A program made the translations under genes and the position numbers. Of a stretch of DNA of 64,000 bases, positions 1,936-10,055 are shown in pieces. Source of the DNA: Gemmatimonas sp. (GTDB taxonomy: Bacteria; Gemmatimonadota; Gemmatimonadetes; Gemmatimonadales; Gemmatimonadaceae). Position 1 is the stretch's first letter. Every line of letters starts with the position of its first letter. Under the pieces are notes generated by a model that made no database searches, was not told the origin of the DNA, and saw only the letters and a list, made by a program, of their open reading frames with translations. The DNA is taken from NCBI GenBank assembly GCA_011390885.1, contig JAABRO010000022.1, positions 1-64,000 of the forward strand. Direction: 5' to 3'.

Positions 1936-3056
1936 GTGCCCTTCGTGCACGCACCCTGACCGCGGCGGTGCTCGCCGCCTCGGTCGGGCTCACGGCCTGC
2001 GACCTCGGCAAGAAGGAGGTCGTGCAGACGGGCTATCGCGGCACCGCCATGGAGCAGCCGTACGACATGGGGAAGGTCGACGCGAAGTACTCGCAGGTCG
2101 TCATCCCCGAAGTGCTGCCCCCGGCCGGCGCCTCGCCGCCGGGCCCGCTGCCCTGGCAGAACGTGCAGGTGCTCAACGACATCTCGGTGGCGGAGTTCAA
2201 CCGCACCATGATCGCGATGAGCACCTGGGTCGCCGGCACCGGCAACTGCGCCTACTGCCACAACCTCGCCAACCTCGCGGCCGACACGCTGCCGAGCGGT
2301 GAGCCGATCTACACCAAGATCGTGGCCCGGCGCATGATCCAGATGACGCGCCACATCAACTCGCAGTACCAGCAGCACGTCGCCAACACCGGCGTCACCT
2401 GCTACACGTGCCACATGGGCAAGCCGCTCCCCAACGGGCTGTGGTTCTACGCGTCGCAGAACGACTACCTGCGTCACTACCTCGACCGCGATGGCGCACG
2501 CGTCATCTCGCACACGATGGAGCCGACCGAGTCCAACCGGTCGTCGGTGAAGCAGACGGAGTGGACGTATGCGCTCATGATCTCCCAGTCCAAGTCGCTG
2601 GGCGTCAACTGCACCTACTGCCACAACTCGCGGCTCTTCTCGAGCTGGGAAGAAGCGCCGCCGCAGCGCGTGACCGCCTACCATGGCATCATGATGCTGC
2701 GCGACGTGAACACCAACTTCCTCGCCCCGCTCGAGCCGGTGTACCCGGCCGTGCGTCTCGGGGATATGGGTGACGCGCCCAAGGCCCAGTGCATCACGTG
2801 CCACAACGGCGCCTACAAGCCGCTCTACGGCGCACAGATGGCCAAGGACTATCCGGCCATGTGGGGACGCTCCGACTGGAATGGCACGCCCTTCCCGGGG
2901 CTCTACCAGGCGCCCCCGGTCGCCGACTCGGTCGCCCCGCCGGTGACCGACGCGGCAGCCGACGCGGCCGCGGAGCAGGTCTCCGCGGCGCCGACCATCG
3001 GCACCTCGCCGGCGGCCGCGCCAGCCCCCCGCAGCCGCACCGGCTCGGAACGCTGA
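1932..3056 (+). CDS. pufC: Reaction-centre tetraheme cytochrome c subunit
   Basis: Periplasmic cytochrome subunit that re-reduces the oxidised special pair. Four heme-binding CxxCH motifs are visible: CAYCH, CYTCH, CTYCH and CITCH. Candidate axial ligands lie in helices before each motif (for example [28 protein letters not shown] and GIMMLRDVN). The N-terminus is a lipoprotein signal with an LTAC box, so the mature protein is probably lipid-anchored at about Cys23. Length is 374 residues, normal to slightly long; the last 50 or so residues are an Ala/Pro-rich tail that the family does not need. The start ATG overlaps the pufM stop. A strong hairpin follows the stop, so pufC appears to close the puf operon. 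Confidence 0.96.
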
Positions 3057-3075: not shown

Positions 3076-3113
3076 AACGCCCCGCGGTGCTCCGGCGCCG
3101 CGGGGCGTTATCG
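3076..3113 (+). terminator. Hairpin closing the puf operon
   Basis: A perfect 12-bp stem (AACGCCCCGCGG at 3076-3087 pairing with 3098-3109) with a 10-base loop lies 20 bases after the pufC stop. The following bases are only modestly T-rich (ATCGTT), so termination may be partial. Between here and 3266 I see no gene; a second small inverted repeat (CCCCGACGTCGGGG) is present near 3137-3150. Confidence 0.65.
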
Positions 3114-3266: not shown

Positions 3267-3908
3267 GTGACGACCCGCCGACTGCCCGTCTACATCCTCG
3301 ACGACGTCTCCGGCTCGATGCAGGGAACCCCCATCGAGTCGGTCAAGTCCGGCATTCGCCAGCTGCACCGTGACCTGCTCGGCGACCCGCAGGCCATCGA
3401 GAGCGCGTACCTGTCGATCATCACCTTCGGCAACAACGCGCAGCAGGCCGTGCCGCTCACCGAAGTGGCCATGTTCAACCCGCCCGAGCTGCAGGCCTCG
3501 GGCACCACGAACTTCGGTGACGGCCTGCGCATGCTCATCGAGAGCTTCGATCGCGAACTCGTGCGCACCACCGCCGACGTGAAGGGCGACTGGCGCCCGC
3601 TCGTGTTCATCCTCTCCGACGGCGCGCCGACCGACGTGGAATGGCCCATGTACGCGCAGCAGCTGCGCGAGCGCCGGCCGGCCAACATCATCGCCGTGGC
3701 CTGCGGCGACCAGGCCGACGTGAACGTGCTCAAACAGGTCACCGAGAACGTCATCCTCATGCAGGAGATGACGCCGGACGCGTTCAAGGCCTTCTTCAGC
3801 TTCGTCTCCGCCTCGGTCAAGCAGACGTCGCAGAAGGTGGGCGCCGTGGCCGATGGCAGCGCCATCACGCTGCCGCCGCCGCCCCCGGGCATCACGATCG
3901 TTCCATGA
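3267..3908 (+). CDS. TerY-like von Willebrand factor A protein
   Basis: A 213-residue single vWA domain. The metal-ion-dependent adhesion site is complete: DVSGS near the N-terminus, a threonine in GTTNFGDG, and the acidic loop SDGAPTD. The form LPVYxLxDxSGSM is typical of TerY proteins. In the TerY-P triad described by Aravind and colleagues, a TerY protein is encoded with a PP2C phosphatase and a protein kinase, and the same two partners follow here. The GTG start at 3267 has GGAG about 9 bases upstream and begins the protein right at the domain, as in relatives; an earlier in-frame start would add an unrelated leader. The protein ends in a proline run. The stop overlaps the next start (ATGA). 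No signal peptide, so probably cytoplasmic. Confidence 0.85.
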   Translation: MTTRRLPVYILDDVSGSMQGTPIESVKSGIRQLHRDLLGDPQAIESAYLSIITFGNNAQQAVPLTEVAMFNPPELQASGTTNFGDGLRMLIESFDRELVRTTADVKGDWRPLVFILSDGAPTDVEWPMYAQQLRERRPANIIAVACGDQADVNVLKQVTENVILMQEMTPDAFKAFFSFVSASVKQTSQKVGAVADGSAITLPPPPPGITIVP

Positions 3909-5059
3909 GTGACCAATCGGCGGTGCCGGAGGGCGCAAGCTCCTCCGGCACCGTACCCGCACACGCCACGCCGATCGACGGTGCGACAGCTGCCAGCGCG
4001 CCGGTCGTGACCGACGGCGCCGAGACGCCGGCCGAACCGCCGCTTCCCAAACCGGCCACGTGGACCGTGAAGGCACCCACCGCCCCGTGGTGCCCGCCGG
4101 CGCACCGTGAGGCCATTCTGGGCGTGCTCGCACCCGCCGTGGCGGCGCGCTTCACCGTGCGCTGCGATCGCACCGTTGGCGCCGACGGCGCACTACGCGA
4201 CGACGCGGCCCGCGGTGACGGCGTGCACGCACAGGCCGGCGACTGGTCGGTGACCGGAGCATCGCGTCGCGGACGCCGCCACGCGCACGTGGGCGAGTGG
4301 AACGAGGACGCGTACGTCGCGCACCTCGGTGCGACGCGCGGCGTGCTCGTCGTCGCCGACGGCGCGGGCTCCGCCTCGTGGAGCCGCCTCGGTAGCGCCG
4401 TCGCCGTGGACGTGATCGTGCAGGCGCTCATCGACGCGCCCGCGCTGAACGCCGACGCGATGAACGAGGCGCTCGCCAACGCGGTGGACGTGCTCACGCG
4501 CGCCGCGACGGCCATGGACGTGGCGCCGCGACTGCTGCGCACCACGATCCTCGCCGCAGCGTGGGAACCCAGCGCCATCGGGCACCGGCTCGTCACCACG
4601 CAGGTGGGCGATGGCTCGCTCGTGCTCGCGCACACCGACGGTCGCATTCACCGCCCCGCCGCAGGTGACGGCGGCGAATGGTCGGGCGAAGTGCACTGCT
4701 TCCTCCCCGACCCCGAAACGATGACACGCGCGCGCGCCGCCACCGTCGAGCACGACGTACCCGACCTCGCCGCGCTGCTGCTCGTCACCGACGGCATCGA
4801 CGACGCGTTCTATCCGTTCGCGAAGCACGCGCCCGCCATTCTGGGCCAGCTCCTGCACGGCGCCACGGCGCCGCTCACGGGACTCGCCGCGCAGGCCACC
4901 GCGCCCGCGCTGCTCGCCTCGTCCGCGCCCGAAGCCACGCTGCACCAGTGGCTCGGCTTCGAGAAGCGCGGCGAGAACGACGACCGCACCCTTGCCGTGG
5001 CGCTGCACCGCACGGCCTCGCACGCAATCGCACCATGGGCACCGTCAGCGTCCGCCTGA
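3905..5059 (+). CDS. PP2C-family serine/threonine phosphatase
   Basis: 384-residue PP2C-type phosphatase. The metal-binding aspartates are all visible in order: NEDAY, VADGAGS, VGDGS, VTDGIDD and ENDDRTLAV. About 110 N-terminal residues before the catalytic domain are Ala/Pro/Thr-rich and unconserved-looking. It lies between a TerY-like vWA gene (4-base overlap) and a kinase-fold gene (25-base overlap), the arrangement of a TerY-P phosphorylation triad; by that analogy it would reverse phosphorylation made by the kinase, possibly on the vWA protein or on the membrane proteins downstream. The substrate is unknown. No transmembrane segment was seen. Confidence 0.85.
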   Translation: MSDQSAVPEGASSSGTVPAHATPIDGATAASAPVVTDGAETPAEPPLPKPATWTVKAPTAPWCPPAHREAILGVLAPAVAARFTVRCDRTVGADGALRDDAARGDGVHAQAGDWSVTGASRRGRRHAHVGEWNEDAYVAHLGATRGVLVVADGAGSASWSRLGSAVAVDVIVQALIDAPALNADAMNEALANAVDVLTRAATAMDVAPRLLRTTILAAAWEPSAIGHRLVTTQVGDGSLVLAHTDGRIHRPAAGDGGEWSGEVHCFLPDPETMTRARAATVEHDVPDLAALLLVTDGIDDAFYPFAKHAPAILGQLLHGATAPLTGLAAQATAPALLASSAPEATLHQWLGFEKRGENDDRTLAVALHRTASHAIAPWAPSASA

Positions 5060-6462
5060 CCGACGGACGAACCCTCCACCTCGACGATACGCCGGTCGGC
5101 AGTGGCGCCGAGAAGCGCGTGTTTCTCACGCGCGACCGGCAGTACGCGGTGGGGTTCTTCTTCGGCAATCTCAAGGATCGTCGTGAGCGCGTGGACCGCC
5201 TCACGCGCATCATCGCCACGTACAACCCCACGCTTGGCGCGCACGGCGACTACTGGACGCCGTACTTCTCCTGGCCCGTGGCCATGGCCGAAGGCGTGAA
5301 CGCCATTCCCATGGCCTTCGCGCAGCGGCAGGGGCTCGTGTGGCCGCCGCTTGGCGTGGTCACGCCGGTGTATCGCGACGCCTTCTACTTCCGCGACCGC
5401 TTCGGCAGCAAGCAGGAGAAGGAGGTGAAGTGGTTCACCGGCGGCAAGGCGTCGCAGTTCGTGCCGCGCGAGGAGCAGGGCTCGCTGCTGGGCCGCCTGC
5501 GTGTGGCGACGCGCCTGGCGCGCGCGATCCGTCGCATGCACTTCGCGGGGCTCGCGCACAGCGACCTGTCGAACAAGAACGTGCTCATCGACCCCAAGGG
5601 CGGTGACGCCTGCGTGATCGACATCGACTCGCTGGTGGTGCCGGGCATTGCGCCGCCGAGCGTGCTCGGCACGCCGGGATACATCGCGCCGGAGGTGATG
5701 GCGGGGAAGGCCGTGCCGAGCATTGCCACCGATCGGCATGCGCTCGCCGTGCTGCTGTACCAGCTGCTGCTGCAGCGGCATCCGCTGCAGGGCACGCGCG
5801 TGAACAGCCAGCGCTCGGCCGAAGAAGACGAAATGCTCAGCATGGGTGCGCGCGCGCTGTTCATCGAGCACCCCACCGATCGCAGCAACCCGCCGGCCAA
5901 GCCCATTCGTGTGCGCTACCAGCAGCTGGGGCCGCACCTCGCGCCGCTCTTCGAGAAGAGCTTCGTGCACGGGCTGCACGCGCCCGACAAGCGCGCCGAC
6001 GCGGGCGAATGGGAGAGCGCGCTGTACCACACGCTGAACATGCTCGCGCCCACGCAGTCGGGGCGGCAGTGGGTGGTGACGGGCCCCGGGCTCTCCACCA
6101 CGTGCGCGTTTTCGGGCGAGCGCATTGCCGGTCCCCTGCCCTACGCGCGCGTATGGCGTGACACGGGCAAGGGGCTCGTGGACGAGAAGCTCACCTTCAG
6201 CCTGTTTCACCACCTGGTGCTGCACACGTGGCACCTGCGCCCCGGCGTGTCGCCCAACGAAGTGGCCGACCGCACGCCGCAGGGCTACGTGGCGCAGCAC
6301 GGCGGCAAGTGGTGGATCGTGAACACGTCGCACGTCCCGCTGCACGTGGTGGACGGCCCGCGCATCGGACACAACGAGTCGGTGGAGCTGGTGTCGGGGC
6401 TCACGCTCCGCACCAGCGAGGAGACACCGGCGCGCGTGCTGCGCATCGACTTCCTGCGCTGA
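5035..6462 (+). CDS. Protein-kinase-fold protein of a TerY-P-type triad
   Basis: 475 residues. The kinase domain covers roughly residues 15-345: a glycine loop (VGSGAEKRVFL), a catalytic loop HSDLSNKNVLID (the HRDxxxxN equivalent), and DIDS where DFG normally stands, followed by a GTPGYIAPEV segment like the activation loop and APE motif. The beta-3 strand reads YAVGFFFG, with no lysine in the usual VAxK place. The C-terminal 120 residues form a second domain that I do not recognise, rich in aromatic residues (WHLRPGV, KWWIVNTS). The ATG at 5035 lies inside the end of the PP2C gene. Context makes it the kinase of the vWA-phosphatase-kinase triad. Whether it is catalytically active cannot be decided from sequence. 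Confidence 0.8.
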   Translation: MGTVSVRLTDGRTLHLDDTPVGSGAEKRVFLTRDRQYAVGFFFGNLKDRRERVDRLTRIIATYNPTLGAHGDYWTPYFSWPVAMAEGVNAIPMAFAQRQGLVWPPLGVVTPVYRDAFYFRDRFGSKQEKEVKWFTGGKASQFVPREEQGSLLGRLRVATRLARAIRRMHFAGLAHSDLSNKNVLIDPKGGDACVIDIDSLVVPGIAPPSVLGTPGYIAPEVMAGKAVPSIATDRHALAVLLYQLLLQRHPLQGTRVNSQRSAEEDEMLSMGARALFIEHPTDRSNPPAKPIRVRYQQLGPHLAPLFEKSFVHGLHAPDKRADAGEWESALYHTLNMLAPTQSGRQWVVTGPGLSTTCAFSGERIAGPLPYARVWRDTGKGLVDEKLTFSLFHHLVLHTWHLRPGVSPNEVADRTPQGYVAQHGGKWWIVNTSHVPLHVVDGPRIGHNESVELVSGLTLRTSEETPARVLRIDFLR

Positions 6463-6472
6463 GCGCACGCGC

Positions 6473-7930
6473 GTGACCACGCCGCACGCGCACGGACACG
6501 TCGCGCCGACGGCGGCCATGGAGTCGGCCGCCTCGGCGCTCGCGTCGCTGCTCGCGAGCGGCGAGCCGTGGCCGCCGGTGGCACCGCTGCGGCTGCGCAA
6601 CCTGCTGCTCGATGCGTGCGGCAGCGATCATCGCGCGCTGGTGGAACTGCTGCTGCGCGTGGGGCGCCACGGCATGGCCGACGCGCTGCGCGCACTCGGC
6701 ACCGTGAAGCCCGACGCATGGCCGGCGCATCGCACGCGACTCGTGGCGCGCGCGTGCGGCGAGCTGTTCATTGGCGCGGAGGTCGCCGCGTGGGCGGTGG
6801 ACGCGTGGGCCGTCGCGCTGTCGGTGGTGCCGGCCGGCACCGTGCAGGCCATCCAGCGGTCGTACGAGGAGGAGGCGCGACGCGCGGTGCGCGAGCGGGA
6901 ACGCGCCGAAGCCCAGGCCGCGGCCGTGCTGCGCTCGAGCGCGGCGCTGGCGGCGCGCGCCGGGGGCGTGGTGCCCGCCGCCTCGATGGGCGCACTCGCG
7001 GCCATGCCTGCGGGCACGGGGCGACTCATGGGCACGCCGGGCGGCCTCATGGCCACGCCCAAGTGGGGCGGCACCGCGGCCACGCTGCTGCACACGCCGT
7101 CGTGGGCCGGCGGTGCCGCGGCGCCGCGCGTGGGCGCCTGGCGACGCGGACGTGGCGGTCCGCCGCGATGGCGCGTGTCGGCCACGCCGCTGCAGCCGCC
7201 CGACATGCGCAAGTTCTTCGCGCTGTTCGCCGTGGTCGCGGTGTGCATGTTCGGGGTGGTCACGCTCATGCGGCGGCTCACGCCCGCACTGTCGGTGCCG
7301 ATGCCGATCATTGCGCTGCCCGAGACGTCGCAGGTGGACATCACGCCACCGCCGCGGCCGGACTCGGCGCGAACGGTGAGGTCGCAGGCGGCAGCTGCCT
7401 CGGCTCCGGCATCGTCTCCATCGTCGGCATCGGCATCCGCTGCGTCGTCGGCACCGACGGCTGCTCCCGCCGCCGTCCCGGCGCCGGCACGCCCGCCCGC
7501 CGGCGCCGCGCCCCCCGCCACCGCGCCCGCCGGCGCCGACCTCATCACCAGCGGCATCGGCGGCATCTACGAAGTGCAGCACCGCATCCTCTCCGTGCAC
7601 GGCAATGGACTGTGCGACCCCGTGGCCGAGTCGCTCGCGCGTCGGCAGCAGCTCACCGTGGAAGAGATCGTGCATACGCCGGGCGAGTCGACGTTCGCGC
7701 TCGCCACGCGCACGGGGGTGATCGGCCGGTTGCAGGCCGACGGCGTGTTCGCCACGAGCGTGCACCGCAGCATCTACGACAACGTGCGCATCGTGTTCCG
7801 CATGACCGGCCGCTTCACGCGTGACGGCTTCGTGGCGCGCACCACGACCGAGACCGACGCGATCATCAAGTACCGCGTGCGGCAGCAGTGCCTCGTGCTC
7901 GCCGACCTCATCGGCACGCGCCGGCGATGA
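6473..7930 (+). CDS. Single-span membrane protein of the triad locus, unknown function
   Basis: 485 residues, starting with GTG at 6473, 10 bases after the kinase stop. Residues ~25-120 form a helical domain ending in EVAAWAVDAWAVALSVV; a matching domain opens the next gene, although the rest differs. Then come a charged, probably coiled helix (YEEEARRAVRERERAEAQ), a Gly/Ala/Thr-rich linker, one membrane span at about residues 247-266, a long Ala/Pro/Ser linker, and a compact C-terminal domain of about 120 residues containing two cysteines (NGLCDP and RQQCLVL). The likely topology is N-terminal domain in the cytoplasm and C-terminal domain outside, which would suit a sensor or a phosphorylated membrane target of the triad. 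The function is not known. Confidence 0.65.
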   Translation: MTTPHAHGHVAPTAAMESAASALASLLASGEPWPPVAPLRLRNLLLDACGSDHRALVELLLRVGRHGMADALRALGTVKPDAWPAHRTRLVARACGELFIGAEVAAWAVDAWAVALSVVPAGTVQAIQRSYEEEARRAVRERERAEAQAAAVLRSSAALAARAGGVVPAASMGALAAMPAGTGRLMGTPGGLMATPKWGGTAATLLHTPSWAGGAAAPRVGAWRRGRGGPPRWRVSATPLQPPDMRKFFALFAVVAVCMFGVVTLMRRLTPALSVPMPIIALPETSQVDITPPPRPDSARTVRSQAAAASAPASSPSSASASAASSAPTAAPAAVPAPARPPAGAAPPATAPAGADLITSGIGGIYEVQHRILSVHGNGLCDPVAESLARRQQLTVEEIVHTPGESTFALATRTGVIGRLQADGVFATSVHRSIYDNVRIVFRMTGRFTRDGFVARTTTETDAIIKYRVRQQCLVLADLIGTRRR

Positions 7931-7994
7931 TCGCGCGCGACGCGCGGGGCACCGTCTCCTCCAGGCAGGCGTTCACCAGCATGGAGTCCCGGTC

Positions 7995-10055
7995 ATGACG
8001 GTCACGCTCACCGACGCCCGCCGCACCATGCGCGAGGCCCTGCACCGCCTGGTGCACGAGGGCGACGCGTGGACCGAGCCGTCGATCGCCGTGTTCCGCA
8101 ACCGGCTGCTCGACGAGGTGGGAAGCGACGCGCGTCCGCTCGCCAACCTGCTCGTCGAGGCGATCGACCGCGGCGTGGTGGACGCGCTGCCGCGCACGTC
8201 GCTCACGCCCGCGCAGTGGAGTGCGAAGAGCACCCCGCTCGTCATGCGCTGGGTGAATGACCGCTTCGTGCAGGCCGAGGTCGCGCGCTGGGCGGTGGAA
8301 GCGTGGGGCTATGCGCTCGGCTGCATCGACACGAGCCAGCTCACCGCGTCGGTCGATGCCCCGCAGCCGGAGCCGCTCACGCCGCAGTGGCCCGATCGGC
8401 GCGTCGAAGCGACGACGGGTGCCGCGTCGCGCGCCACCGCGCGCGGCGGCATGACCGCCCCGCCCTCCACCGGCGGCACGGCGCCCTGGCGCGCAGGCTA
8501 CACCCCCACCGTGGCGGCGCCGGTGCCTCGCTACGCGGCCCGACCCAGTTCGCCGCCGCCGCAGTACGGTCGCCTGGCCGGCGCCTCGAACAGCTGGGCG
8601 GTGGCCAATGCACCGCGCGTGGCGATCGCGACCGCCGCGATCGCCGTGAGCAGCTACATCTACATCTTCGTCTCCGCCGCGCTCCGCGAGCCGGCCGCCG
8701 CACCGCCTGCCGTCGCGTCGTCGGTCGTGGGTGCGCCGTCTGAGGCGCCGTCGATCACACCAACCACCGAGCTCGACAGCCTCAGGCGAGCGCTCAGTGG
8801 CTGGAGCGGCGGCAACGACAGCATCAGCGGCAACGAAATCCCCACCACGTACTCGGTGGCGCAGCCGGCGCGGCGTGCGGAAGACGGCGGCCGTGCCACC
8901 GTGTCCGCCCCGACGCTCGCCTCCGGTATCGGGGTCGGCGGCCAGGCCACGCTGGTGCCACTCGCGGCCGGCACCGGCACGGCGCCATCGCTCGCCATGA
9001 CACGGCTGCCCGCCGAGGGCGCGACACCGAATGCGTACCTCGAGCTCGCCGCGCGGTCGAACGCGCGTGGGCTCACGGAAGGCGGCACCGCCTCCTCCGC
9101 CCCCGCCGCCCCCCGCAACACGCCACTCACCCCCGGCGTGCCGGGGATCACGCGCAACGCGCTCCCCGTGCGCGGCGGCGATCCGGATCGCGTGCGACGC
9201 GTGCAGCCGGCCACGCGCCCCGCGCCGCGGCTCACCGGCACCTTGCCGCAGGGCACGGTGGCACTCGGAACCGCGCCGGCCGGCGCACCGTCAGCGCCCG
9301 GTGCCGTCGCGCGCGCCGGCACGACCGGGAGCAACAGCGCCGCACCAGGTGCAGCGGCCGCGGCGACGCGCGCACCCGTCTCGCGATCGGTGGCACCGAG
9401 CCCCTCGGCGCCGGTCTCCCGCGCGAACGCGGGCGCGCCCGCGACACCAGGCCTCGACCAGCTGCGTCTCGAAAGCGGCCGGCGCATCACGGGGCGCGTG
9501 GAGATCATCAAGACATCGTCAGTCGTGTTCCGCGATGCCGAAACGGGGCTGCGCTACGAGTTCGCGAAGAACGACATCGACGAGATCATCACCGAGTTCG
9601 GCAGCGCGGTGCGCTTTCGCCAGGCCGCGAGCACGGGCAATCGCGCCACCACCGACCGTCGGCTCACGAGTGTGGCCGGGCGCTACGCCGTACGATACGA
9701 GGCGGCGCGTGTCGACGGCTCGGCGGCGTGCCGCGACCTGTGGCGCGGTCCATCGGGCGGCGATGCGGCCGACATCCGCCACCGCGCCGGCGACGACACG
9801 CTGTCGATCGCGTTCGCGGGCGGCGACACGTTTCCGTCGGTGATGGATGCGGACGGCTTCTTCTCGAGCACGTTCCGCATCATGCAGGGGCAGGAGCAGC
9901 TCGCCACCGCGCTCACCACGCGCCTCAACGGGCGCTTCGGAGAGAATGGGGCGCTCAGCATGCAGGTCACGGTGATCGGCTACCGGCGCGTGCAGGGCAC
10001 GGCCGGCGTGTCGTGTCAGATCACCGTGCAGGCGTCGGGCGAGAAACGCGGGTAA
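7995..10055 (+). CDS. Single-span membrane protein, paralogous N-terminus, unknown function
   Basis: 686 residues; the ATG at 7995 has GGAG 8 bases upstream. Residues ~8-115 resemble the N-terminal domain of the previous gene (matching FRNRLLDEVGSDARPLANLL and EVARWAVEAWGYALG). One membrane span lies near residues 209-230, followed by about 250 residues of Ala/Pro/Thr/Gly low-complexity linker. The C-terminal ~200 residues form a folded-looking region with beta-rich character (RITGRVEIIKTSSVVFRDAE) and two cysteines. Its stop is 34 bases from the convergent puhC stop. It ends the five-gene module begun by the vWA gene and may be another substrate or sensor of that kinase-phosphatase pair; this is inference from position only. 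Confidence 0.6.
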   Translation: MTVTLTDARRTMREALHRLVHEGDAWTEPSIAVFRNRLLDEVGSDARPLANLLVEAIDRGVVDALPRTSLTPAQWSAKSTPLVMRWVNDRFVQAEVARWAVEAWGYALGCIDTSQLTASVDAPQPEPLTPQWPDRRVEATTGAASRATARGGMTAPPSTGGTAPWRAGYTPTVAAPVPRYAARPSSPPPQYGRLAGASNSWAVANAPRVAIATAAIAVSSYIYIFVSAALREPAAAPPAVASSVVGAPSEAPSITPTTELDSLRRALSGWSGGNDSISGNEIPTTYSVAQPARRAEDGGRATVSAPTLASGIGVGGQATLVPLAAGTGTAPSLAMTRLPAEGATPNAYLELAARSNARGLTEGGTASSAPAAPRNTPLTPGVPGITRNALPVRGGDPDRVRRVQPATRPAPRLTGTLPQGTVALGTAPAGAPSAPGAVARAGTTGSNSAAPGAAAAATRAPVSRSVAPSPSAPVSRANAGAPATPGLDQLRLESGRRITGRVEIIKTSSVVFRDAETGLRYEFAKNDIDEIITEFGSAVRFRQAASTGNRATTDRRLTSVAGRYAVRYEAARVDGSAACRDLWRGPSGGDAADIRHRAGDDTLSIAFAGGDTFPSVMDADGFFSSTFRIMQGQEQLATALTTRLNGRFGENGALSMQVTVIGYRRVQGTAGVSCQITVQASGEKRG

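Follow-up and report, generated by a model that had tools for sequence, protein, structure and literature searches.

A module of five closely spaced genes on the plus strand of a Gemmatimonas-like genome, set amongst the genes for photosynthesis, is in our estimation moderately likely to encode a membrane-coupled phosphorylation switch, in which an enzyme triad derived from the TerY-P lineage has two paralogous membrane proteins as its targets or sensors. The best reading of its history is that the module is inherited together with the photosynthesis cluster in the Gemmatimonadaceae and is dispensable for phototrophy. Phototrophic Gemmatimonadota possess a whole photosynthesis cluster derived from purple bacteria that is under little transcriptional control, and the main text of the transcriptome study names no kinase or phosphatase genes (PMC11406998). 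A phospho-switch that is nearly confined to the phototrophs of the phylum is a candidate for control of the cluster at the protein level. If true, control of the photosystem by such a switch would constitute a post-translational layer of regulation, and to our knowledge no such layer is known from the purple-bacterial donors. A set of known but unnamed 'hypothetical genes' thereby gains a testable identity, and a TerY-P triad that operates without its metal-binding ribbon and with membrane partners narrows down the role of the triad core.

Organisation of the locus

The stretch of DNA that was analysed, a 64-kb window from a genome that its relatives identify as Gemmatimonas-like and a member of the Gemmatimonadota, opens within pufL, which is cut by the contig start at the left edge of the window, and the upstream puf genes lie outside it. 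The order from left to right is truncated pufL, pufM, pufC (ending at 3056), the five-gene module (3267-10055) and the bch/puh operon at its puh end, whose puhC/puhB-like genes, encoded on the minus strand, converge on the module from about 10090. The first gene of the module, g1 (3267-3908, GTG start), encodes a TerY-like vWA protein of 213 aa and overlaps by 4 bp with g2 (3905-5059), which encodes a PP2C phosphatase of 384 aa and in turn overlaps by 25 bp with g3 (5035-6462), encoding a TerY-P-type Ser/Thr kinase of 475 aa. These are followed by g4 (6473-7930, GTG start) and g5 (7995-10055), which encode a single-span membrane protein of 485 aa and its 686-aa paralogue. Since homologues of each frame are conserved in other genomes, none of the five is a chance ORF; gene calls and homologues alike bear out the original prediction of five tight genes between puf and the puh end of the bch operon, for which the placement stands and the earlier wording of the order is corrected to the one given here.

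A variant of the TerY-P triad

The first three gene products match the Pfam families VWA (2e-9), PP2C_2 (5e-29) and Pkinase (2e-13), respectively. The vWA protein possesses an intact MIDAS (DxSxS, T, D) and shares 38-48% identity with the vWA proteins of an E. coli ter operon. Its C-terminal tail, LPPPPPGITIVP, is almost invariant amongst the vWA proteins of the Gemmatimonadota and resembles a proline-rich docking peptide; the corresponding tail in Verrucomicrobiota, LPPPPPEIIIHP, is similar. In the PP2C phosphatase the metal-binding aspartates are conserved and the N-terminal extension is variable. The kinase retains the catalytic HSDLSxxN and DID motifs, is 37% identical end to end with the ter kinases of E. 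coli plasmids (E 4e-84), and is just as similar to a kinase from Bacillota whose operon encodes three TerD-like proteins, vWA, PP2C and kinase. Fold searches with the kinase were dominated by ordinary kinases and returned nothing on its C-terminal beta domain. Throughout the TerY-P kinase family, the E. coli ter kinase included, the usual beta-3 lysine is missing (kinase residues 24-43) and in the Gly loop (GSGAEK) a conserved lysine takes the place of the third glycine, as it does in the WNK kinases.

The TerY-P triad of ter operons, for example those on enterobacterial IncHI plasmids, has the same order of vWA, PP2C and kinase as the module, and the ter-operon kinases have the same C-terminal region as the module kinase. 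In contrast to the ter operons of enterobacterial plasmids, in which the genes are ordered vWA, TerD, vWA, vWA-TerY_C, PP2C and kinase, the module is without TerD, TerY_C or TerW neighbours, includes two additional membrane proteins that are specific to Gemmatimonadota, and resides on a chromosomal contig within the photosynthesis cluster. Moreover, the C-terminal zinc ribbon of the kinase has been lost: the four ribbon cysteines are present in the ter kinases of E. coli and Bacillota, whereas three or four of them are gone in Gemmatimonadota and Verrucomicrobiota. The published definition of TerY-P includes a zinc ribbon fused to the C-terminus of the kinase (PMC11090510), and by this measure the module kinase falls outside it. 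The TerD family (PF02342) was found in none of 21 genomes (the module's own and 20 relatives), in a search whose control matched two of 14 genomes. On sequence grounds the triad descends with TerY-P, and would work like it, but as a variant in which the zinc ribbon is lost, TerY_C is absent and TerD was not found; the module is not a tellurite operon. The proposal that the first three genes are a TerY-P triad accordingly holds for the motifs, the gene order and the 37% kinase identity, and fails for the ribbon.

Among the closest parallels are free-standing triads of Verrucomicrobiota (L071-L074, L076), which share both the gene order and the loss of the zinc ribbon with the module (47-50% identity for the kinase, 62-65% for the vWA protein) but have no g4/g5 homologue nearby; pufM is absent from those of their genomes that were tested. 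Genes of the g4/g5 type are missing from the TerY-P-type triads examined outside the Gemmatimonadota, an absence that the original prediction had named as evidence against it.

The membrane protein pair

The products of g4 and g5 are paralogues with the same layout: a common N-terminal domain of ~105 residues, a disordered linker, a single transmembrane segment, another linker and, at the C-terminus, a domain that harbours an invariant pair of cysteines 91-95 residues apart; g5 has an extra small barrel. The last two genes thus conform to the earlier description as single-span proteins with a common N-terminal domain, to which the shared Cys-pair domain can be added. In g4 the transmembrane segment spans residues ~248-266 and the cysteines are Cys381 and Cys473, whereas g5 comprises a helical N-domain (5-107), the transmembrane segment (208-229), an LSm/SH3-like barrel (488-540) and a beta-barrel (562-685) with Cys579 and Cys674. 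The structure model of g5 is confident for its N-domain and the two barrels, the remainder being mostly of low confidence, including the transmembrane helix. Seven Arg/Lys residues flank the N side of the transmembrane segment in g4 of the host's own genus, which suggests an N-in, C-out topology; by the same charge rule the signal for g5 is weak, and several homologues of g4/g5 are ambiguous.

Neither protein has a meaningful match in Pfam, NCBIfam or PADLOC, and the N-domain gave no usable match in Pfam or the PDB. PDB searches returned no match for g4 and only weak, unrelated ones for g5; in the control, pufC retrieved 7o0u and 9h19, and the PDB holds complexes of both G. phototrophica and G. 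groenlandica. Neither g4 nor g5 was matched as a subunit of the solved Gemmatimonas complexes, and the idea that they might be RC-S or RC-U, two additional subunits of the reaction centre, was rejected for want of a PDB match. For the C-terminal barrel, fold searches with g5 yielded weak best matches only (PsbO, TbpB and calycins, TM below 0.35), and residues 488-540 bear a resemblance to LSm (prob 1.0, TMt about 0.6) that is nevertheless short; for these reasons we draw no function from either. The number of membrane partners varies from one in G135 and G281 to three in L069, where the paralogues lie in tandem (L069:5429-9362) and the first is short and without the C-terminal domain. Both the phosphatase and g4/g5 evolve quickly, with roughly 30-40% identity between genera across much of their length, a divergence that fits a scaffold and equally a conflict-type system.

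Distribution and inheritance

Of the 298 Gemmatimonadota genomes, 16 contain close homologues of the vWA protein (71% or more), and the kinases are found in these same 16. Carriers account for 16/34 pufM-positive and 0/264 pufM-negative genomes (Fisher 2e-17) or, counted by genus, 4/11 and 0/108 (4e-5), statistics that ignore descent; since the Gemmatimonadota triads form one single clade (100/99), the counts are not independent. When g4/g5 were tracked across the 298 genomes by means of an N-domain profile, 15 genomes were matched, 14 of which carry the triad while the match in the fifteenth is marginal, and in the two carriers without a match the contigs stop inside the kinase gene. Apart from the marginal match, the N-domain was found only together with the triad, and the membrane pair was found only in Gemmatimonadota. 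A survey of the module with and without photosynthesis genes, as had been proposed, gives a one-sided association, with every carrier positive for pufM and 18 of the 34 phototrophic genomes devoid of the module. A groundwater MAG (L066; JACQES01) contains the PP2C, the kinase and two membrane genes, and in this possibly partial MAG neither pufM nor bchL was detectable.

The module tree and the puf tree have 10 of 15 splits in common, compared to a maximum of 3 in 2000 label permutations, and the module has therefore mostly travelled with the cluster. Its presence mapped on the puf tree entails five changes, a history that a single early gain followed by several losses could account for.

The puf/puh junction

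The position of the module between puf and puh, noted in the original prediction, is conserved but no requirement. G180 and G135 have a puf/puh junction without the module, which lies on another contig, and G281 has the module on one contig and pufM on another. G202 retains every part of the module despite their dispersal to three places: vWA and kinase adjoin puf, g4-g5 lie some 15 kb off and the PP2C gene is on another contig. The enzymes and g4/g5 are inherited together even in such a dispersed state. Where the module is missing, several phototrophs have pufC directly facing puhC/puhB. The convergent junction of G244 (L104:5800-10200) is filled by other genes that have no similarity to the module, and the junction is therefore considered permissive. 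In G129, a module-less phototroph, a different kinase gene that is PknB-like by its N-terminal sequence is located shortly after pufC (L102:6835-9552).

The photosynthesis cluster of phototrophic Gemmatimonadota is known to be split by 'hypothetical genes' in some members and not in others (PMC8547001, PMC7844134). The set described in Gemmatimonas phototrophica occupies the same puh/puf inter-operon site as the module, and these, judged by their location, are very probably the module genes; neither of the two papers recognised the insert as a kinase/phosphatase switch.

A strong hairpin with a 14-bp stem and a TCCG loop (3077..3108, plus strand) follows pufC and is a probable puf terminator. 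An equivalent hairpin occurs ~20-75 nt past the pufC stop codon in most carriers, with a stem of mostly 12-14 bp, a T-rich tail in many carriers and compensatory changes across species, such as two positions at which G000 and G184 differ by a G-C to A-T exchange. Hairpins follow pufC in module-less phototrophs too. A generic terminator scan omitted the pufC hairpin because of its stricter T-tail rule. With the hairpin read as the puf terminator, the module is probably a transcription unit of its own; the conserved hairpin between them led us to reject one joint operon with pufC, and the co-transcription that the original prediction had put up for testing is unlikely, given a strong hairpin with compensatory changes in nearly all carriers.

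Alternative readings

Co-occurrence through descent explains much of the pattern, and it is quite possible, if somewhat doubtful, that the module is a passenger, i.e. a general envelope or stress switch in a permissive convergent gap that is tied to photosynthesis by shared descent alone. This overlaps with the best explanation, from which it differs solely in whether photosynthesis matters for function. The module-free junctions of relatives, the other genes in the junction of G244, the hairpin that parts the module from puf and the groundwater MAG without detectable pufM or bchL are what a passenger would lead us to expect, whereas the complete absence from the 264 pufM-negative Gemmatimonadota and the retention of the module by phototrophs even when unlinked are not. 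A regulator dedicated to the photosystem, which would act through g4/g5 to sense or adjust either the reaction-centre/light-harvesting complex or a periplasmic redox state linked to light, accounts for this strict confinement to pufM-positive genomes (16/16), for the co-occurrence of module and puf where they are unlinked (G180, G135, G281) and for the appearance of PsbO and calycin-like barrels among the weak best fold matches of g5. However, the single clade deprives the counts of independence, 18 phototrophs manage without the module, in L066 it occurs with neither pufM nor bchL detectable, the PsbO match lies below a TM of 0.35 and no convincing match to g4/g5 was found in the PDB with its G. 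phototrophica and G. groenlandica complexes, so that we consider such a dedicated regulator unlikely. The proposed tie between phosphorylation and the photosystem is thus suggested by co-occurrence and weakened by the phototrophs (18/34) that lack the module. We consider it equally unlikely that the switch was recruited once the cluster had entered the Gemmatimonadota and has since come to control the foreign photosystem or its membrane.

TerY-P triads occur alongside CoCoNuT restriction systems, OB-fold variants defend alone (PMC11090510), and the TerY-P-like modules of CoCoNuT/STK defence follow the same enzyme-triad logic as ours (PMC11090510). Together with the quick divergence of g4/g5, this lends some appeal to a TerY-P/STK-type system for anti-phage defence or conflict, a reading which we regard as very improbable: the module has no restriction or nuclease partners, no helicase or other effector of STK or CoCoNuT was found at the locus, where g4/g5 alone follow the triad, its PADLOC matches are generic kinase matches, and its mostly vertical co-inheritance with puf is unlike the turnover of an island.

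Proposed mechanism

In the membrane-coupled switch that we prefer, the kinase would add phosphate to its targets or sensors, the paralogous g4/g5, and PP2C would take it off. The vWA protein, using the Mg-binding face of its MIDAS and its conserved proline tail, would bring the enzymes onto these targets, docking them at the cytoplasmic part of g4/g5, which would comprise the helical domain and the disordered Pro/Ser/Thr-containing linker, the latter being the likely phosphate acceptor. On the other side of the membrane, the predicted periplasmic beta domain, putatively stabilised by a disulfide, may sense or act, and an envelope or redox condition could be passed between periplasm and cytoplasm through g4/g5. 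Between the convergent puf and puh operons the module would form a separate transcription unit with a putative promoter of its own. The substrate of the kinase could also sit outside the operon.

An arrangement parallel to the g4/g5 pair was observed in another Verrucomicrobiota locus (L075:2664-5424), in which PP2C and kinase genes are followed by those of two proteins with a common N-terminal GYF_2 domain, one of them with a VWA domain.
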